Source: Daucus carota subsp. sativus
Lineage: Eukaryota > Streptophyta > Magnoliopsida > Apiales > Apiaceae
Reading direction: 5' to 3'
DNA length: 64,000 nucleotides
Assembly (NCBI RefSeq): GCF_001625215.2
Contig: NC_030385.2
Span: forward strand, 26,343,135-26,407,134
The notes beneath the pieces are model-generated. The model did not search any database and was not told where the DNA came from. It saw nothing but the letters and a program-made list of their open reading frames with translations. A program made the position numbers and the translations under genes. Positions 4,051 to 34,560 of this stretch are shown here, piece by piece (the first letter of the stretch is position 1; each line of letters opens with the position of its first letter).

Positions 4051-4259
4051 AGAGTTTTGCTCTACTAGATTACTGCCAAAAGTAAATTACTAGGCACATA
4101 AAAAGAAAATTTCCCTTAAGAAAAAGGTATTTACATAAAAAGAAGAGCAAGCCAAAAGTATCTTTCTAGTGATCAAAATAATTCAAGAAACGATCAAAAT
4201 TCCCATTTTAAACACTGATTTGGGTCTTTCCTCAACGTCTTCTCCCACACTAGTTTCCA

Positions 4260-7200
4260 ATGGCTGAAGAGGAAAAACTAAAAGCAAAGCAAGTGGATGA
4301 ACAAACTGGCAACGAAGAACAAGAACAAGTTAATGAACTAGAAGAAAAGTGGGTGAAATATTACTCGTCTTTACATGAAATATTGCTTGTGGGTGAAGGA
4401 GATTTCTCATTCTCGGCGTGTTTAGCGCAGTCTTTTGGCTCTGCTTCCAACATTGTTGCTTCTTCTCTTGACTCCTTTGGTATTATGTTTTAAGCCCTTT
4501 TCTTTACCCTTGTGTTTTTTCATAATTTTGGGTTTGGAGGATCTTCTGTACTGTAGTACTTTTAATTATGTTTTTGTATTTGCTTGCACCCCTTTTGCTT
4601 GATATATCATATATGTGCGCGTGTATGATATCGCAGGTGGAAGTTAAAATTATGGTATTAATTGATAGTGTATTTTGCATCTCATGTTTTGTGGTGGGGT
4701 TATGATCAGGACTGATCTATATTGTTTTTCTGTGGGGGTGGGGGTTTGAATCTTTTTATTTGATTTGGTGAGCATATGACCAGCAGTGATAATACAAGTG
4801 ACATACTTTTTGTTTCTTCAAAGGTAAGTTGGGTATTTTTTGATTGTCGTGGTACTTAAGACATGACTCGTGGTACTTAAGACATGACTCCGCTTAGGTT
4901 CGAAACCTCCCCCTCTTTGTTAGTGAGGGGCGAGGAAGAACTATATCCACTAGGATAATATGCTAGAGATTGAAGAGGACTTTGATAAAAAGCACCATTC
5001 CAGTTCAGGAGGATATTTGGTCCCCGAATGTAGTTAGGTTTTCATCAAGAAGTTGACAAGTCCTATTATCAAGCTTTTGTTTTTTGCTTTATAAAGCTTA
5101 CCCACCTTAGCTTCTTGCTAAAACTATTTTGTAAGCCATGTTTTAGCCCCTCCGCTTACTATATTGCTTATGTACAACTCATCTCAATTTGAGCTTTTAA
5201 GTTTTAACCATATTTCTTCATATGATTTCTTTTACTAGATGATGTCATCAAGAAGTACAAGAACGGTGATTCAAACTTATCAATTTTGGAAAAGTTGGGT
5301 GCTTCGCATTTGCATGAAGTCGATGCAACAAAAATGAAGTTTCATAGTGATCTTAAAATGCGTAAGTTCGATAGGATCATATTTAATTTTCCTCATGCAG
5401 GCTTCTACGGAAAGGAAGACAATAGACATCTCATTGGGTAAGTAACAGATCCGCATAGGTGTATGTAATTTCCCATGATTTACAAAGTCATATATTATCA
5501 GCCATCAATGATCAGTCTCTTTTTAGGACTGAAAGGGAAGTATTATGGTTTTATATCTGCATGACGTTCTATGCTGTTAAGTTATGTATAGTTATTATTA
5601 CAAGTCATAAACAAGAAGGTGTATGTGATTTCCCGTGATTAACAAGGTCATATATTATCAGCCGTCAATGATCAGTCTTTTTTTAGAACTGAAAGGGAAT
5701 TATTATGATTTAATATCTGCATGATGTTCTATGCTGTTAAGCTATGTATAGTTATCATTACAAATCATAAACAAGAAGGAAAGACTGTTTTTTACTGCTG
5801 CTGGCAAGATCCTTTTATAATGTGATGGGGATACTCCTGTTTTGAATATGGTGAGAATGGAAATAGTTTTTGCACCATTTGTCCGGGTATATTTAAACAC
5901 AACTTGTCAAATGTTTCATTAGGAGTTAACAGATGGGCTTGCGCAGATATATACTTGATCCTACTTAATTTTTTCCAATTAAGTCAAGTGCTTGAGGCGC
6001 ACATGTAATTATTGATTCTAGTAAAAAGTTCCTCCTTTTTGTAACTTTCCTTTCATCTCCATTTATCCTTCAGGACTATATCATCATGTAATTCTATAGG
6101 AACATTAGTGAAATAAGAAACAAAGCAATATCAGCACTTAGTCATATACTTATATGTTGATGTCTCAGAAAGGGGTAGCTAATTTCTAGTGCAAGTGCTG
6201 GATACAAAAATCGTAAGCAGATGCCAATTTTTTTGTTTTTTTGCCGATTAATTTTGCTTCACCTAATGGAAAGTTCAAGATGACATAAATGTGCTCTGAT
6301 TCATTCTCATTTACAGGCAGCACTTTTATTATTCTAAACATGCAAGTTAAAAGAATTACAGAACTCATATTCTCATTTTATTTGTTTTGACAACTAATTT
6401 TGGAACTGATGGAAGGTTATCTGATATTATCTGCTAGGAAGATTATATTAAGTTCTTGACATGCAAAGTGCCTCTCTTAAACATCAATTTATTTATGAGA
6501 GAAGTTTCATGTTTATGCATCATGAGATTTATTTTTGCAATTCTAAACAACTCCATGTTTAGCAAATTTTATGTGCAAACTGAATTTGTTTTGTAAAGGC
6601 GGGGTACTTTTAATAAATAATATGTTAGTAATGTAGTGTTGGTCCTTTTAAAATTTGCTCCTATTCAGGTGTTGTGTGTTGGATTCATCAATTAAAATTG
6701 TCTGGCACGTGTTTGTCCTGCATAAACTTCTAGCTTTTGTTGCTTTAATGATTTCAATTTATGGTTCTATGAATGTTGTCTTTTGAAATTTTAATTAATT
6801 ACTATTAGTCGTAAATGAAGGATGCACAAGAAGCTTCTTAATGGTTTCTTCCGGAATGCAAGTGGTATGTTACGACCAAATGGTGAAATACATGTGAATC
6901 ACAAAATTTCAGACCCATATTGCCACTGGAATCTGGAGGAACTTGCTAGTGATAATTCTTTGAGACTAATTGAATGTGTTGCTTTTAAGAAGGAAGACTA
7001 CCCTGGTTACGAAAACAAGCGAGTTTCAGGTTTAAAATGTGATGATAAGTTCCTCTTGGGCGAGTGTTCTACCTTTAAATTTAGTTTCTCTCCAAATGCG
7101 AAACAGAACATGAAGAGACTGCAGAAACCTGCAGATTCTCCTAAGTTTGTGCCACAGCGGCCAAACTCTTTTATGTTTAGACACCGTCCATCGGATCTTG

Positions 7201-8027
7201 TTGCATATGCGAGTGGCACTCCAGCATGGAACATAACTTTAGGAAGAATCCCTGAACTTCTTCAAACTCTTGTACATGCTTCTCATCAGCAAGGAAACAT
7301 TCTTCAGCATGGGCAACGTCATGGACTCCTCCAGAATCCTGCGTGTGCTTATCAGCAAGAAAACTATCAAGCAAACAGGCACCCCTCATCGGATCTTGTA
7401 ACATTTGTTACTAAAAATCCAGCATTGAACATACCTTATGGAAGATCTTATTTACCACTTCAAGCTCCTACAAGTGCTTCTCAGCAACAGAACTTTATTG
7501 AACATGTACTACCTCGTGAACTCCGTGCTTCTCAGCAAGGAAACATTCGTGAACATGTACTGCCTCATGAACTCCGTCAAACTCTTATCCGTGCTTCTCA
7601 GCAAGGAAACATTCAGGCTCGTGAATTCCTACAGGCCTCTTTATGTTCTAATCAGCAACCTCATTATCCCACATCCAGGTGCCCTCCATCTGATATTAAT
7701 CTGCAGATGAGCAGCATCCAAGGGAGTAATGGATCGCTGCATGTTGACCTCATATTCTCGAAATGCAAAAGCATCTTCGGTGGGTACTTTGAACAAGTAG
7801 TAAAAGCATTAGGAAGTCCTGATCACAGCTCTAAATTCCTGGAGGAAGCTTTTCAGCTTGGTTATAAAAGGTATATGGCTGGAGATCCGAGAGGAAGTCC
7901 AGGTAATTACAAATATATTCTAGAACAGCTGCGCAAATTTGTTGGCAGAGAATCATGTCTAGTGAGCAGGCCTGTGGCTGTTGAAAATAACCGTGCCAGC
8001 AACAGCAGATTTGGACCATTCATGTGA
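4260..8027 (+). CDS. DUF2431 (BMT5-like Rossmann) protein, copy 1
   Basis: Three exons: 4260-4479, 5239-5437, 6821-8027; the joined frame is 541 residues. Residues 40-200 form the DUF2431 domain, recognisable from HEILLVGEGDFSFS (glycine-rich SAM-binding-type loop), the RIIFNFPHAG motif and a GEIHVNHK motif. This domain is related to yeast Bmt5, which methylates a uridine in 25S rRNA; whether plant members methylate rRNA is not shown here. After a cysteine-containing strand (GECSTFKFSF) comes a long low-complexity extension rich in Q, H and N with repeated 'ASQQGNI' units (about residues 280-430). A small conserved C-terminal block follows, with FLEEAFQLGYKRYMAGDPRG and YILEQLRKF. The start fits the paralogue (both begin MAE). 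The intron 2 acceptor is AAG where the paralogue has TAG. NCBI-style names for relatives include 'heavy metal-associated isoprenylated plant protein 41-like' and 'At4g26485-like'. Confidence 0.88.
4849..4907. repeat. 21-bp tandem duplication with SINE-like B box
   Basis: In intron 1 of the first DUF2431 gene a 21-base word starting GTGGTACTTAAG is present twice in a row (4849-4869, 4870-4890). It is followed by GGTTCGAAACC at 4897-4907, which fits the RNA polymerase III B-box consensus of tRNA-derived SINEs. A clear A box and tail are not visible, so this is at most a SINE fragment. Confidence 0.35.
5459..5778. repeat. Tandem duplication, 2 x 160 bp, in intron 2
   Basis: Two consecutive 160-base copies (5459-5618 and 5619-5778) each start GTGTATGT and end AACAAGAAG. 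They differ by roughly a dozen substitutions. The duplication lies wholly inside intron 2 of the first DUF2431 gene. The second DUF2431 gene has only a single diverged counterpart (about 10250-10450), so the doubling followed the gene duplication or was lost in the other copy. Confidence 0.85.
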
Positions 8028-27640: not shown

Positions 27641-28225
27641 ATTTTAAATGCCATGAAATGACAAGAATATAGGGAAATAGATAAAACTTATACTTACGAG
27701 AGAAATATATGTCGGACGTTTAAGTTTTTTCCGGAACATAGGACCGACGTTCATTATAGAGGCCGTCGATAGTTACTATAAAATGAAAATATAAATATAT
27801 GTTAGACGGATTTTATTTTCCAAAAATAAGTATCATTATGCTTCATTCCTGATTTCTCAAACAAATATTATTGAAAAAAGCACACATTTCTATGCGAAGC
27901 TCAGATATGCTAGCATTGAGGGATTGTATATAGGTGGTGTTTGGCTACGGCTTTTAAGCCGACTTCTGGGCTTATAAGTTAGAAACACTTATTTCGTACT
28001 GTTTGTGTAATAAGTCAAGAAGCACTTATAAAAAGTTAGGAATGCTAGCTTTTGTTTCAGGACTTCTGCTTATTTGCCAAACATTTTAATCACTTATAAG
28101 TCTTGTCTGGCTTCTAACTTCTACTCCACTTATTTATTTTAAGCAAGAAGCACTTATTTTAAGCTCAGCCAAACGGCCCCATACTCTTTTCCTTGTTCAG
28201 AGGTATCTCACAGGTTTTTGAATGT
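27641..28225. repeat. Duplicated segment copy I, including a copy of the SDHAF1 3' flank
   Basis: From about 27641 to 27890 this segment matches copy II (28222-28261 joined to 29051-29247). From 27884 onward it instead matches the SDHAF1 3' flank at 25700-25791, with the word 'gaagctcagatatgc' and, after an interrupting element, 'ttttccttgttcagaggtat'. The segment thus records a local transfer of gene-flank sequence. Confidence 0.8.
27933..28180. repeat. PIF/Harbinger- or hAT-type MITE with visible empty site
   Basis: The ends GGTGGTGTTTGGCT and AGCCAAACGGCCCC are inverted; the interior is full of 'cttataagt' words in both orientations. It interrupts the copy of the SDHAF1 3' flank: the uninterrupted original reads 'tgtatatacac' at 25744-25754. 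The junction fits a 3-bp duplication (ATA). Confidence 0.82.
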
Positions 28226-28261: not shown

Positions 28262-28772
28262 GAAATTCTTGATGGTACACTCCTTGAATTGGTTTTTTTC
28301 AATGGTACTATCGCATTTTTGATTTCTACCAGTGGTACCCTCGTATTTTTAATTTACTCTCTATGGTACACTCGTGTACTTTTGATCTACTCTCTATTGA
28401 TTTCATACTGTAAAACAAATTGTCTATTTGAAATCCTTGCGAAAAGTTACATAAAATAAACCCTTAAATCATGTAAAACTGATTCAAAATGAGTGAGATA
28501 TTAATGACAAAGTTTGGTTATGAAGTTTTAATATATCTAACTCATTTTGACTCTGTTTTACATGATTTAAGAGTCTATTTTATGTAACTTTTCGCAAGGA
28601 TTTCAAATATACAATTTGTTTTACAGTTTGAAATCAGTAGAGAGTAAATTAAAAATACACGAGGTTACCATAGAGAGTAAATTAAAAGTACGAGTGTATC
28701 ATCGGTAGAAGTCAAAAATGCGATGCTACCATTGAGAAAAGCCAATTCTATGAGTGTACCATCAAGAATTTC
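28262..28772. repeat. Long fold-back element (about 230-bp arms)
   Basis: It starts GAAATTCTTGATGGTACAC and ends with the reverse complement. The arms continue pairing for roughly 230 bases each, for example 'ccttgcgaaaagttac' on the left against 'gtaacttttcgcaagg' on the right, around a short AT-rich centre near 28500. No coding capacity. Long inverted arms suggest a Mutator-like non-autonomous element, but a clear 9-bp target duplication is not visible. It sits inside copy II of the duplicated segment. Confidence 0.85.
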
Positions 28773-29051: not shown

Positions 29052-29247
29052 CTTACGAGAGAAATATATGTTGGGACGTTTAAGTTTTTTCCAGAACTTA
29101 GGACCGACGTTTATTATAGACGCTGTCCATAGTTACTATAAAATGAAAATATAAATATATGTTCGACGGATTTTATTTTTCAAAAATAAGTATCATTATG
29201 CTTCATTCCTGGTTTCTCAAACAAATATTATTAAAAAAAGCACACAC
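29051..29247. repeat. Duplicated segment copy II, main part
   Basis: It matches 27692-27890 with few differences, including 'acttacgagagaaatatatg' and 'catagttactataaaatg'-type words. It ends at the CACAC target site of the LTR element. Confidence 0.85.
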
Positions 29248-29620
29248 TGTTGGAACCAAGATTCTGCCGGATGTCGAGGCCTAGATGCGACCTGAAATAG
29301 AGAAGAATGCGAGGGATTGTCCCCCCGATTCACCTCCGGCGTGAGAATAAGTCAGTGGTTCAAGGTGAGGATTAATGGAAACTGCAAGTGTTTGTGTGTG
29401 TAGAAATCAAGTGAATCATTATCTCATATTACCGGGGTATTTGAAGGGGGTGATTTCCGTGTTGTAACGTCTTCCCCTGATGTGGTAGGAGAGTAATGGG
29501 GTTTTAATGCGACATGATCCCCGCCTCTGACCGTTACAATGGTGGCGCTGGAGTAGTTTAAATGATGGGCTGGACCTCTTGGACCTTAACAAATTGGGCT
29601 GAAGGGTCTGTCCTCCAACA
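29248..29620 (-). repeat. Left LTR (3' LTR of the element)
   Basis: 373 bp, TG...CA ended. It lacks the 7-base insertion and carries an extra GT in a GT run compared with the right LTR, which accounts exactly for the 373 versus 378 length difference. Confidence 0.93.
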
Positions 29621-30407
29621 TGTCCCCAGGCTTCGGTCGGGTCTGTGCGTGGCCGAAGTCTGAGTAGTCTCGCCGACCGACGAGAAGAGATGTCAGATTG
29701 TAAGGCCGTGGAGTTGGGTCTTGGCAACCGAAGGTCTATAGAGAATAGCTCCCGAAGCCCGATCAATCCCGAGGCATCATCGACCTGCGGGGGAGGTCGA
29801 GTCTTATCGCTCCGAGTGGTCGATTCTGGCCACTAATGGCCTAACTAGCGATGTCCCAGAGATGACGAAGAGCCCGGGACCTCGTTCTTTCATCTTCCTG
29901 GCGGGTCGCTTGGTATATACTAGCCAGTCATCACGGCATGGCTGTGAGCCGATCGGTTATCTTCCCTTGTTGTCAATCGGGAGAATGATTTCAAAGTCCG
30001 GTTGCATCGGACGGAAGTTCTTCGGGCATACCGAAGGGTGAATAGAGGCCGGTCAAGACGATACTCAAGGCTAGAAACCAGGGGGTCGCTATCGAGAACG
30101 ACGCGACGGTCATTCTAGCTCGTGAGGTCGGTTATGACCATAGACTTCTTCTGTCGAAGGCACGGGCGACTTGCTAGGCCGTCCGAAAGTAGCCCCTGCT
30201 TCTGAACTTTTATATTATTGATGTGCCTTCGGGCATCGAGCATCTTTGATTGTGTTCGGGCCCCATTTTTAGGGTATTATTTTATGCATCTTTGGCTTAA
30301 ATGTATGTTGCCTTAGCGTATTTTACCCTCAATGCTTTTTGGGTATTCATAACCTCAGCATGGTGCGTGTTTGGCTATTTTTTTATTTGCCTCGGGCGTA
30401 ATCCTGA

Positions 30408-31227
30408 TGTATGTCTTCAACCGACCAGTCTCAATACATGTGTTTATAGTATGTCTTCGACCGACTGGTCTCGATACGCGTTTTTGGTATGTGCGTCTTC
30501 AGCCGATGAGGCTTCGGCACACGTTTTTGAATGTGTGCCTTCAGCCGATGAGGCTTCGGCACACGTTTTGTTTTAACTTTTAATGTACGTATTTAGCCGT
30601 TGAGGCTTCGGTACATGTATATCAATTTGAATTTGTGTACGCTTTTAGCGGATTTCGCTTCGGTACATGACTATTCCTATCTTTTATGTACGTCTTTAGC
30701 CGATGAGGCTTCGGTGCATGACTGTCGTTCTCAAGTATTTGGAGGGTAACTTAACACAAGAGGTCTGATCGGGTGTATGTCTTCGACCATAACGTCTCGA
30801 TACATGCTTTTAATTGTGATGTACGTCTTCGACCGAAGCGTCTCGATACATCTCTTTCAATTGTGATGCGTGTCTTTGACCGAAGCGTCTCGACACATGT
30901 CTTTTAATTGTGATGTGTGTCTTTGACCGAAGCGTCTCAACACATGTCTTTTTAATTGTGATGTGTGTCTTTGACCGAAGCGTCTCAACACATGTCTTTT
31001 AATTGTGATGTGTGTCTTTGACCGAAGCGTCTCCACACATGTCTTTTTAATTGTGATGTGTGTCTTTGACCGAAGCATCTCGACACATGTCTTTTAATTG
31101 TGATGTGTGTCTTTGACTGAAGCGTCTCGACACATGTTAGATAGGCGGCGATGACCCGTTCGGCCAATTGGCTCGTTATTCAATTTTCATCCTTGTATGT
31201 CTTTAGCAGTTTTTCGCTTCGATACAA
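30408..31227. repeat. Array of about 16 two-stem hairpin units
   Basis: About 16 related units of 30-32 bases, first spaced irregularly (30408-30804) and then in a 47-48-bp tandem (about 30819-31137). The last unit is at 31194-31227. Each unit has the layout outer stem (TGTAC type), spacer (GTCTTT type), inner stem (AGCC type), loop of 4-5, inner stem complement (GGCT), three bases (TCG), outer stem complement (GTACA). The stems vary together: outer TGTAC/GTACA, TGTAT/ATACA, TGTGC/GCACA, TGTGT/ACACA; inner AGCC/GGCT, GACC/GGTC, AGCG/CGCT, GAC/GTC. In element orientation the array lies between gag and the 3' LTR. No known function. Confidence 0.85.
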
Positions 31228-31477
31228 GGGCACCTTGTCGATTCCCCCAATATTTGGGGGATTGTTTTTATCTTAATAATATAGATGTTCGATCGGCCTA
31301 TCGCGCCCATTATAGATAAAAACAAGCATGCAAATATTTAATTCGATCTTCGGCGGACTCATATCTTTAATCGGGTTGCCCCCAGATATGGGTTCGGTTC
31401 GAAGTTAACTGTAAATGTACTAAGCGCTAGTGTACTCAAATAAATCAAGCATATACCGGGAACTATAATGGTCGTTC

Positions 31478-32578
31478 CTACGGTTCATGGCTGCCCACGG
31501 TTTCTATCTTTCTACGAATACTTTCACCACGCAGATAGATATCATCCAAGGATTTGGGCGGTATATCGTAAAGAGAAGACCGGAGCTTTTTACCTTTAAC
31601 TGGGTCTAAGCCCGCCGTTAGGAATCCTGCAGCTTTGACTTTGTTTAAGTTGGTGATCATCCCTGCCTCCTCCTTGAACCGGGCCAGATAATCCCCTAAC
31701 TCCTCGTTCGGCCTCTGCCTGCAATGGATGAGTGCTTCGGTATCTTTCACCCTTCGGCATAGATGGGAATAGTGCCTCAAAAATTTCTTCTTCAACTGAT
31801 CGTACGAGCTGACCGACCTGGGCCTTAGGGACCGATACCACATTGTCGCCGATCCCTTTAGATAGGTCATAAACATTTTGCATAACATAATATCACAGTG
31901 GCTCATACCCGTCATGAGGGACTCGTACTTGTCACAGTGGTCGATCGGGTTTTCCTGGCCATCGAATTCGGTCATCTTCGGGAACTGCCTCCCTGGTGGT
32001 GGTCGGAACTGCTCGATCTTCTCGACTACAACCGGCTCGTGAGTTAACTTTTTGTCTCCGAACATAGCTTTCTCCATCCGGCGTAGTCGGTCTTTCGTGT
32101 GGGGACCCTCTTCGGCCTCCTCAGAATCCGACGGGGTTACATGTCGGTGTCTCGAACTTCGAGGACGCGACTCAGAGTCCGAAGACCCGTCTTGGTCTTC
32201 CCGGTTCCTCTTCTTGGGTTGCCCTTCTCCTTCGGTCATAACGATCACATTTTCGGCTTCGAGGGCCTCCCTGAGGACTCTCTCTTGCAACTCGATCTCC
32301 TCTCTCTGCAGCCGGAGGGCTTTCAGCCTCAATTCACCGGCCTCCTTTTTCTTGGCTAGTCGGGCTGTCCCTTGCTCGTTCTCCTTCGACGTCTGGGCCT
32401 TGACGGCATGTTCCTCTCTCCACTTTAACAGCATCTGTTGTTGCTCTTTAGGGGTCGGCAAGAGGCCTTCAGGGCTGCTGTCGAAGTTCAGGGCTACAGG
32501 TGTGATGGGAGGTCGTTGGTTTCCGGTGAGATGAGTGTTATTTGGGTTGGGTGGTGTTTGATCACTGTTGTTTGTCAT
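31478..32578 (-). CDS. gag: Retrotransposon Gag protein, 366 residues
   Basis: Intact frame starting only about 50 bases after the primer-binding site. Residues 1-180 are charged and low-complexity, including a coiled-coil-like segment (about 50-110: KWREEHAVKAQ, LRLQREEIELQERVLREALE). Residues 195-350 form the retrotransposon capsid domain, recognised from FDGQENPIDHCDKYESLMTG, LKGSATMWYRSL and FKEEAGMITNLNK. There is no CCHC zinc knuckle. The frame ends with a plain stop and nothing follows it in the way of pol. The capsid type is that of plant Ty3/Gypsy elements. The open frame in a young element suggests the protein is, or was recently, made. Confidence 0.9.
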   Translation of the reverse strand: MTNNSDQTPPNPNNTHLTGNQRPPITPVALNFDSSPEGLLPTPKEQQQMLLKWREEHAVKAQTSKENEQGTARLAKKKEAGELRLKALRLQREEIELQERVLREALEAENVIVMTEGEGQPKKRNREDQDGSSDSESRPRSSRHRHVTPSDSEEAEEGPHTKDRLRRMEKAMFGDKKLTHEPVVVEKIEQFRPPPGRQFPKMTEFDGQENPIDHCDKYESLMTGMSHCDIMLCKMFMTYLKGSATMWYRSLRPRSVSSYDQLKKKFLRHYSHLCRRVKDTEALIHCRQRPNEELGDYLARFKEEAGMITNLNKVKAAGFLTAGLDPVKGKKLRSSLYDIPPKSLDDIYLRGESIRRKIETVGSHEP

Positions 32579-32610
32579 CGTCTCAGATTACACAAAGCTT
32601 GCTCTTGCAG

Positions 32611-32629
32611 GTCCCCACAGTCGGCGCCA
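32611..32629 (-). other. Primer-binding site, tRNA-Asp-like
   Basis: Read on the minus strand, just inside the right LTR after one spacer base: TGGCGCCG followed by a diverged part and GGGGA. TGGCGCCGTTGCCGGGGA would be the complement of the tRNA-Asp 3' end, so the first eight bases and the GGGGA agree. Confidence 0.75.
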
Positions 32630-32630
32630 A

Positions 32631-33008
32631 TGTTGGAACCAAGATTCTGCCGGATGCCGAGGCCTAGATGCGACCTGAAATAGAGAAGAATGCGAGGGAT
32701 TGTCCCCCCGATTCACCTTCGGTGTGAGAATAAGTCAGTGGTTCATGGTGAGGATTAATGGAAACTGCAAGTGTTTGTGTGTAGAAATCAAGTGAATCAT
32801 TATCTCATATTACCGGGGTATTTGAAGGGGGTGATTTCCGTGTTGTAACGTCTCCCCCTGATGTGGTAGGAGAGTAATGGGGTTTTAATGCGACGTGATC
32901 CCCGCCTCCGACCGTTACAATGGTGGCGCTGGAGACTGGAGTAGTTTAAATGATGGGCTGGACCTCTTGGGCCTTAACAAATTGGGCTGAAGGGTCTATC
33001 CTCCAACA
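32631..33008 (-). repeat. Right LTR (5' LTR of the element)
   Basis: 378 bp, TG...CA ended, followed by the CACAC target duplication at 33009-33013. Confidence 0.93.
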
Positions 33009-33013
33009 CACAC

Positions 33014-34560
33014 TTGCTTAAAAAAAAAAAAAACACACACTAGACTACTAGATCCTTAAATATTTCTAAAATTCCCCACCTCAAAAGCGATACAGCAACA
33101 GCAGCAGGTAATTACACTGTGGTATGTTTGAATATTGATGGGCACAAATTGAATGTGCAGAGAGGTTTAGTTAAAGATTGCTTGCATTATTGGAATCCTT
33201 TGAAAAGATTCTGATGAAAGATTGTTGGATGTCCTGTGGGCTGTGTCCCTGTCCTACCAAACACATAATTACATAGCTTTCTTGTCAACTTGTATTTCAT
33301 TTCGTCCAATCGAATTACTACATTCTACTCAACTTATTTGTAGCCCTCAAGATTCCCATATTTTACTACACCTTTGCGCTTCACCTTTGATTGCCCTTTT
33401 GTTTAATATTTTAGCATCATAAAATTAATCTCTTTGCATTATTATATGAGCAACTTGCAAACATAGTATTATCGGAAATGTACTGAGATTACGTATGCTT
33501 CAGATTACACCCCCTCTGCTGGACAACGTTGTTTGATCACTGATGAGCGTTAGTTCATACCCAAAAAACAAAAGGAAATTTATAATTTGATAAAATATTA
33601 CTCCCTCGTGTTTACGTTTAGAACCGAAGACTCGGCACATATATTAAAACTCTTAATTTCATATTATCTTGTATATCTTTTTCTTCTGAATAAAATTTAA
33701 TATTTAACTTTTATTCAAAACAAAATTTTCAATAACAAACTATAAAATAAAATTTTACAAAAATTTTAAAATACGTGTCTAAGTGACTTCACTTCATTTT
33801 TCCGGAGTATGAGAACTAAAAGCAATTCTTAGCTTTGTTTTGAAAGGTTAGTCAGAAATCTCCCTAGTCCCCCGACTATAACAGTCAATCCCACGAATTT
33901 CCATCAAATTCTTTCTAGTCCCCTGATTATAACAGACTAGCGAATGAAAAATTGTATAAAAGTTTTAAGGAGAAAGAATAAAGTATGAGATAATTGTGAC
34001 AAAATATGAATGTAGTTAATTTTTTTGTGAGAAAGATTGTGAAGAAACATGATGTTGAAATGGAATGAGCATTTCTACCAAAAGATGTGGGTTAGAGTTA
34101 TAGTTAAAATAATAAGGTTGGAATGATCGAAGGAATGACAATTATATACATTTTCTTTGATCAACACCATTTTAGAGTACAAACTTCATTTCATTCTCCC
34201 TCCGTTCCATTCACCTAAGATTTCTTTTTCCATTTTCTTGAAATTTCCTAAAGAAAGAACATATTACATATATACTTTGCTTCAAAGGATCCAAAATGGT
34301 TCCTTTCCAATAACACACATAACACAACACTTATACCTCAAGCAAAGTGCAAGTTAACACAAAACTTGAGCTCAGCAACAATCTTTATCATTTACTAAAT
34401 CCTCCCCTGCAAACTTCGCCATCATGTCTAATTTTTTTAAAATTATTGCGTGAAAGAAGCATTCAAGAAACTGATCACCCTCAGAAATTAATCATCTAGA
34501 TTCCTGCATCAAGATTCTAATCTTGTTTATGAGACAGAGAGACATAAGAAAGCTGTGTGA
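33014..34560. other. Intergenic, with weak Stowaway-like traces
   Basis: No gene recognised. A degenerate Stowaway-like element may span about 33599-33811 (left TACTCCCTCG, right CCGGAGTA). A lone CTCCCTCCGTTCC end occurs at 34197 without a partner. The last few hundred bases are the probable promoter and leader of the BTB gene. Confidence 0.4.

Follow-up and report, generated by a model that had tools for sequence, protein, structure and literature searches.

The DNA analysed here, hereafter the window, is a stretch of 64,000 nucleotides of the carrot genome (Daucus carota subsp. sativus, contig NC_030385.2), which contains a complete long terminal repeat (LTR) retrotransposon of 3.76 kb on its minus strand (29248..33008), recognised by its LTR pair and the sequence of its ends. 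The element encodes gag as its only retroelement protein, and between gag and the 3' LTR it carries an array of 16 two-stem hairpins (30407..31227, minus strand) with the sequence core of a kink-turn (k-turn). The 5' LTR (32631..33008, minus strand) and the 3' LTR (29248..29620, minus strand) are about 95% identical, and CACAC stands on each flank of the element (29243-29247 and 33009-33013), a target-site duplication that is less certain because the flanks are CA-rich. Adjoining the 5' LTR lies TGGCGCC... (32612..32630, minus strand), which we take to be a candidate primer binding site. The gag open reading frame (ORF; 31478..32578, minus strand) encodes 366 aa with a Retrotrans_gag domain (E=1e-12 in a Pfam scan of the ORF). 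Non-autonomous elements of the TR-GAG type are defined by two LTRs with a target-site duplication, gag only and no pol. The carrot element is of this type: its one retroelement ORF is gag, identified by a Pfam scan of that ORF, and no DNA match to pol appeared in a comparison with six relatives described below. It differs from TR-GAG elements in its hairpin array, which it has in common with a gag-pol family but which is longer than there. An earlier interpretation made from the letters alone (the sequence-only reading) had proposed a gag-only element with about 16 two-stem units between gag and the 3' LTR. We located all 16 units at the positions it gave, and gag is indeed the sole retroelement ORF, on the minus strand.

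The gag strand, and with it the sense strand of the element, is the minus strand, and all hairpins are described in this orientation. Each unit runs from outer stem through C, GA, inner stem, loop, inner stem, (A/G)AA, GA and C back to the outer stem, and is 33-35 nt long once the sixth outer pair is counted. Hairpin 1 in sense order (31193..31227) has an AGC/GCT inner stem and a GA/GA core. Hairpins 2-9 (30773..31135) have a GAC/GTC inner stem (GAT/GTC in one) and the GA/GA core in 8/8; these units (30774-31104) are eight tandem copies of 47/48 bases, so that the 16 units of the window are not independent of each other. In hairpins 10-12 (30583..30719) the inner stem is again AGC/GCT, with GA/GA at 30687 and with AG and TA on the bulged strand at 30636 and 30584. 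Hairpins 13-14 (30489..30564) share this inner stem; GA/GA is present in the 30490 unit, and the 30532 unit has GG instead, its outer stem being uninterrupted. Hairpins 15-16 (30407..30479) combine GAC/GTC and GAC/GTT inner stems with the GA/GA core. The linkers between units are mostly A/U-rich. In the sense RNA there are G.U pairs at units 30820, 30867, 31057 and 30408, where the plus strand has C.A. Conversely, the G-T pair that the sequence-only reading had placed at 30687 reads C.A in the RNA of the element and is a mismatch there, since the sense strand is minus.

In k-turn nomenclature (PMC5061560) the inner stem is the C helix and (A/G)AA the three-nucleotide bulge, and the tandem G.A and A.G pairs followed by 3b/3n lead to the outer, NC helix. 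The units resemble a standard k-turn of the HmKt-7 type in the three-nucleotide bulge, the G.A and A.G pairs, a C at 3b and, in the GAC-type units, a C.G pair at -1b,-1n as in HmKt-7 and U4. The two-stem layout of the sequence-only reading stands, and the conserved feature also includes an asymmetric internal loop that it had missed. The exact GA/GA core is present in 13 of the 16 units of the window. A k-turn descriptor with free stems matched the array 11 times on the minus strand and not once on the plus strand, against a mean of 0.006 in Markov shuffles; the rest of the window gave two matches on the minus and one on the plus strand. When instead only the stems were prescribed and the core was left free, a scan of 30 loci gave 181 hairpins on the majority strand, 157 of them with GA/GA, versus 1 of 38 on the other strand. 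The strand with more matches counted as the sense strand of a locus, and the background amounted to 2 matches over 18 kb in control loci and 4 over the 60 kb that remain of the window without the element.

For a broader view of the core we assembled 90 distinct units from the window and from two alignments of matches in the genome (A1, A2 and A4, see below), dropping rows with gaps in the 27 stem and core columns and leaving out the apical loops. Positions 1n and L3 are A in all 90 cores, 2n is G in 87, 2b is A in 87 and 3b is C in 86; less constant are L2 (A in 82), 1b (G in 73) and 3n (C in 71). The whole GA/AG core occurs in 221 of the 254 rows of these overlapping sets and in 69 of the 90 distinct units. 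The apical loops are of 49 different kinds among 111 distinct full units; the k-turn core thus holds while the loops vary. A C at 3b or a G at 3n confers Mg2+-induced folding on k-turns unless 3b and 3n form a Watson-Crick pair (PMC5061560). All 16 window units have C at 3b, and at 3n there are 12 with C, three with T and one with G; for most units this predicts protein-independent folding. The core and this ion-folding rule are satisfied together in 199 of the 254 rows and 59 of the 90 distinct units. As far as sequence requirements go, the guanines read by proteins of the L7Ae family (G1b and G2n) are present in the core. The k-turns listed in the available part of PMC5061560 are found in rRNA, snoRNA, U4, signal recognition particle RNA, RNase P and riboswitches, with no rows of them in a mobile element; the carrot kinks, in contrast, are predicted from sequence and stand in rows within a mobile element. 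A literature search by title and abstract, with thin coverage of subscription papers, returned no tandem k-turn array in a retrotransposon. As a separate observation, the typical unit has AGAC on its bulged strand, where a C at 3b places GAC around A2b, a possible target for N6-methyladenosine (m6A); m6A at a conserved k-turn adenine (1n) is reported to block binding of 15.5k (PMC5579392).

The array is not confined to the window. In the host genome a DNA search returned 49 matches, and 77 places genome-wide fit an exact pattern in which most core positions were fixed, compared with none for the reversed control. Of the 30 loci from the DNA search, 22 with 1.5-kb flanks were scanned with a covariance model built from the 16 units, the other eight adjoining or overlapping these; this gave 212 matches at E of 0.5 or less, the window array included. 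Except for one match at E=0.45, the matches are one-stranded within each locus. Twenty wider stretches, which share most of these places, gave 90 matches. Nine loci (L121-L129, including that of the window) are gag-only, carry a complete or fragmented copy of this gag (91-100% identity; for L127, pieces of 71-94% in another comparison) and have 12-21 hairpins per copy; L133 has three hairpins and no gag in its stretch. We also noted at least 37 further long gag matches (covering at least 322 aa of the query) of 79-84% identity, at least 14 of them in an open frame of at least 1816 aa; these are lower bounds from 112 scored of 1786 candidates.

Fourteen stretches contain the end of a Retand-type pol and have 3-8 hairpins about 0.3-0.7 kb past the pol stop. 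In every stretch where both are present the hairpins lie on the gag/pol strand. The gag and pol queries matched nothing in six of the 20 wider stretches (L152, L154, L158, L159, L167 and L169), though L167 does show a pol end. L168, the one locus that was scanned, has reverse transcriptase, RNase H and integrase domains and, between pol and the 3' LTR, an antisense ORF (5415-6290, minus strand) with a Transposase_28 domain (TRP28, PF04195; E=9.5e-8). An antisense PF04195 ORF is called characteristic of Retand elements (PMC11963269). In the gag-pol relatives the antisense ORFs end adjoining the array. The LTRs of L153, an internally shortened gag/integrase relative, are 100% identical (398-779 and 6953-7334), which indicates that the family moved recently. 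Compared with six relatives (L151, L153, L154, L155, L162 and L168), the window element matches the hairpin-bearing 3' non-coding part and the terminal 0.4 kb, as well as LTR-gag in L153 and part of gag in L162; it has no DNA match to pol or to the antisense-ORF block of these six. The array appears to have been retained between two blocks that were lost. The tandem arrays described for Retand elements (PMC11963269) are similar in the antisense PF04195/TRP28 ORF (seen here in L168), the position after pol, the tandem units and their variable number. The available main text of that study makes no mention of a hairpin, stem-loop or secondary structure, and the carrot units differ in that they are hairpins with a k-turn core, kept while the linkers drift. 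K-turn hairpins may also account for some of the tandem arrays that Retand elements carry past pol.

Two observations on these relatives stand apart from the hairpins. Past the hairpins, near the 3' end of the antisense ORF, GCCCGAAGGC recurs as a repeat unit in L155, L168 and L153; read on the opposite strand it is GCCTTCGGGC, a UUCG-type hairpin. L167 contains direct repeats (516-1632 and 4256-5372) that are 99.6% identical, and L158 has repeats of 68-72%; the spacing of about 3.7-3.9 kb suggests element pieces in tandem.

Divergence bears on whether the hairpins have been kept by selection. In the window the seven linkers of the old units are 0.41 identical, compared with 0.39 in shuffles, and the nine old hairpins are 0.70 identical. 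Among 13 gag-pol copies (L153 was left out) the mean distance was 0.142 for hairpin 1, 0.026 for hairpin 2, 0.098 for hairpin 3 and 0.169 for the last hairpin, values that misaligned paralogous units would raise. Over the same copies it was 0.076 for pol coding sequence, 0.174 for the non-coding sequence after pol, 0.192 and 0.203 for linkers and 0.266 after the array. Hairpins 2 and 3 of the gag-pol copies are therefore clearly kept. The idea of the sequence-only reading that the fold itself had been kept is supported in several respects: hairpins remain alike where old linkers match shuffles, orthologous hairpins are mostly less diverged than linkers and flanks, gag-pol relatives have the same type of hairpin after pol, and changes on both sides of a stem exceed those in column shuffles.

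The last point rests on four alignments, with 500 column shuffles for each count. A1, a 35-column alignment of the 16 window units, has standard pairs in 95.6% of its 135 cells, changes on both sides in 24 cells (two-sided cells) and a covariation score of 0.510, each of which was reached by 0/500 shuffles; sliding the partner by 1-3 columns lowers the pairing to 50.4% or less. Five of nine pairs are changed on both sides in A1, and the number of pair types, equalled in 500/500 shuffles, is not exceptional. A2 (the best 150 of the 212 matches, 68 distinct) is 97.1% paired with 91 two-sided cells (0/500). A3 (53 matches, 36 of them distinct, from the 12 more divergent loci at E of 0.01 or less) is 95.3% paired, and in it seven of nine pairs are changed on both sides (0/500). 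A4 (the 90 matches of the 20 wider stretches, 55 distinct) is 94.1% paired with 37 two-sided cells (0/500). A3 and A4 represent mostly the same places, A1 is contained in L121, and the pairing counts in A2-A4 lean toward structure because the covariance model was trained on it.

Considering the phylogeny changes this picture. In an R-scape-like test with a null that keeps the tree, the two top-scoring of 351 column pairs are true base pairs with E=0.25 and 1.6, and four of the nine true base pairs are among the top ten. On the tree of the 90 distinct units we counted 70 one-sided changes and three double changes on the same branch, that is, few independent paired changes. Much of the covariation signal seems to rest on one old split between inner-stem types. 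As a strand indicator the asymmetry of G.U over A.C (41 versus 26 cells, p=0.09) is weak. The sequence-only reading had named one-sided changes as frequent as two-sided ones as a sign against it. They are more frequent among the changes on the tree, and less frequent when distinct sequences are counted (91 two-sided versus 26 one-sided and 18 unpaired cells). Paired stem changes exceed those of column shuffles; the covariation expected in the sequence-only reading is not supported by the tree-keeping test.

How could such an array serve the element? We give an even chance to the reading in which the array acts in cis as a conserved part of the sense genomic RNA, its tandem k-turn hairpins offering multivalent docking to a protein for packaging or assembly of a ribonucleoprotein (RNP). 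What we observe is how the units are built and paired, their k-turn sequence core, their occurrence in gag-pol and gag-only copies and the lower divergence of most hairpins; a role in packaging, transport or stability is a hypothesis. The finding that related full-length elements have a shorter row at the matching place suggests that the hairpins mark the RNA for recognition by a protein. We infer that the gag-only element derived from the gag-pol family by losing pol and the antisense-ORF block that flank the array, and that it then might have amplified the array. The RNA of the array would kink at each unit, and several k-turns in a row would provide several similar protein sites on one RNA. 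Such a row could be a multivalent docking site for Gag or for a host protein of the L7Ae family, the archetypal k-turn binders (PMC5061560). The bound protein may help to select the genomic RNA for packaging or RNP assembly, and more units might secure for the non-autonomous element a larger share of the proteins of its helper. There is precedent in retroviruses: a k-turn was modelled in the packaging region of HIV-1, and mutants that break it impair packaging (PMC3690526), and the encapsidation signal of MoMLV contains an A-minor k-turn (PMC5758548). As in carrot, the motif lies in the RNA of an LTR retroelement, and there it is linked to packaging; the retroviral motifs, however, are near the 5' end and, in the available parts of both sources, are not described as a tandem array. 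We claim no homology. These precedents and the L7Ae-family binders together favour a recognition of genomic RNA by Gag or an L7Ae-type protein. A bolder version, which we put forward with considerable doubt, is an arms race between selfish RNAs, in which the row gives Gag, or an L7Ae-family protein hijacked from the host, a multivalent handle and the gag-only element, as a hyperparasite, has multiplied this handle several-fold and so outcompetes its helper for packaging. For the marking of plant LTR retrotransposon RNA for packaging, and for the parasitism of non-autonomous elements on their partners, a compact, repeated RNA motif that conforms to the folding rules and occurs in both a gag-pol family and its gag-only relative is a directly testable candidate signal.

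Several results weigh against a packaging element. The exact GA core is missing in 3/16 window units and 21/90 distinct units. Pairs with two-sided change are as numerous in 84/500 shuffles of A1, in 175/500 of A2 (five pairs, the 62 weaker of the 212 matches not being part of this count) and in 13/500 of A4 (seven pairs). The tree-keeping test on the 90 units, of the kind the sequence-only reading had proposed, gave no significant pair (best E=0.25). On the tree, Watson-Crick pairs turned into A.C (18.5 changes) nearly as often as into G.U (22), as expected for decaying copies. Minimum free energy (MFE) folding of the whole array mixes adjacent units, and its z-score is lower on the plus strand (-5.6) than on the minus strand (-4.0; 20 shuffles each), both strands beating shuffles. 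Two of the four hairpins compared, the first (0.142) and the last (0.169), do not fall clearly below the non-coding sequence after pol (0.174). Most packaging signals of retroelements lie 5'. Furthermore, we found no array in 1.8-kb stretches of eight distant relatives (30-33% gag identity), their position after pol being estimated, nor in two partial closer relatives (58-74%), where the position of the stretch is uncertain; with ten stretches from other relatives lacking it, the array seems not to be needed by the wider lineage. Overall the interpretation of the sequence-only reading is partly supported, and the sense strand and the gag-pol relatives were absent from it.

A possible alternative, although a less probable one, is that the k-turns serve nuclear export, nucleolar routing, stability or translation of the unspliced RNA through host L7Ae-family proteins, and not packaging. 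The array sits between the coding region and the 3' LTR, the core has the guanines G1b and G2n, and L7Ae-family proteins are the best-known binders of k-turns (PMC5061560). However, a C at 3b with a 3n other than G predicts folding independent of protein, unlike the k-turns of U4. Retroviral constitutive transport elements are likewise structured, stand before the 3' LTR and have repeated internal loops, but their loops, host factor and sequence are different.

We regard it as unlikely that the array reflects neutral turnover of tandem repeats, with a hypervariable 3' region as reported for Retand and a unit that is an imperfect palindrome by chance and without function. The number of units does vary between loci, and covariation that takes phylogeny into account is not significant. 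Neutral turnover would have to explain, however, why hairpins stay alike next to randomised linkers, why most hairpins are slower than linkers in the 13 gag-pol copies and hairpin 2 is even less diverged than pol coding sequence, why the core is near-invariant while loops vary, and why the array was kept between two stretches that have no counterpart in the gag-only element. A rather improbable source of the paired changes is the correction of quasi-palindromes by template switching in a hairpin during reverse transcription or replication, for which no selection on RNA is needed. Hairpins invite such switching, which would yield two-sided changes without an effect on fitness, and the unit at 30532 does have an uninterrupted stem; yet correction should symmetrise the internal loop, and instead the asymmetric core of 3+6 nt is kept best. 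It is very improbable that the antisense transcript is the relevant one, as a hairpin region of the antisense-ORF mRNA or a source of small RNAs: the plus strand beats shuffles in folding (z -5.6) and the antisense ORFs of gag-pol relatives end beside the array, but the tandem G.A core is on the sense strand (11 versus 0; 157/181 versus 1/38) and the gag-only element has no DNA match to the antisense-ORF block.

Returning to the packaging element, the array is perhaps one piece of a larger 3' RNA module. Immediately preceding it is a near-palindrome, CCCCCAA-N3-TTGGGGG (31244..31260), and there is also an inverted repeat (31249..31338, minus strand) with 25-nt arms (31249-31273 and 31314-31338) and a counterpart in gag-pol relatives. 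Further upstream a hairpin with CATATCT/AGATATG arms around GGGGGCAACCC (31360..31390, minus strand) is found in gag-only and gag-pol copies, L160 and L166 among them, with a mean distance of 0.072 among the 13 gag-pol copies. The whole pre-array module (hairpin around GGGGCAACC, long inverted repeat and near-palindrome) is common to gag-only and gag-pol elements, with mean distances of 0.072-0.084 among gag-pol copies.

An Rfam scan of 29200-33100 gave no match at curated score and two sub-threshold matches at chance level (E=2.8 and 2.9), and a protein search with the reading frame through the array gave no match. A hammerhead or retrozyme motif was set aside, its core being absent by eye. 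Gag scans of viral and prokaryotic contigs returned no relative, plasmids gave no match, and specific hairpin patterns gave none either (two patterns in viral contigs, one in genome contigs); a loose hairpin pattern hit at least 120 stretches of viral contigs, which we took as chance and did not use. Among 38 proteins the closest to the gag of the element is a 99% match labelled Daucus carota, and other named matches are from Heracleum and Apium. A C-x2-H-x4-H-x4-C segment is present in four of eight gag relatives examined (P0004, P0011, P0015 and P0022) and not in the window gag; we read this segment as zinc-knuckle-like, with the window gag apparently stopping before it. Finally, the retrotransposon adjoins a large, foldback-like inverted repeat (28262-28772) with 240-nt arms that are 90% complementary and a 31-nt spacer. 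This foldback is flanked by a 173-nt direct repeat (27714-27886 and 29074-29246, 94% identical) that stops at the retrotransposon insertion.
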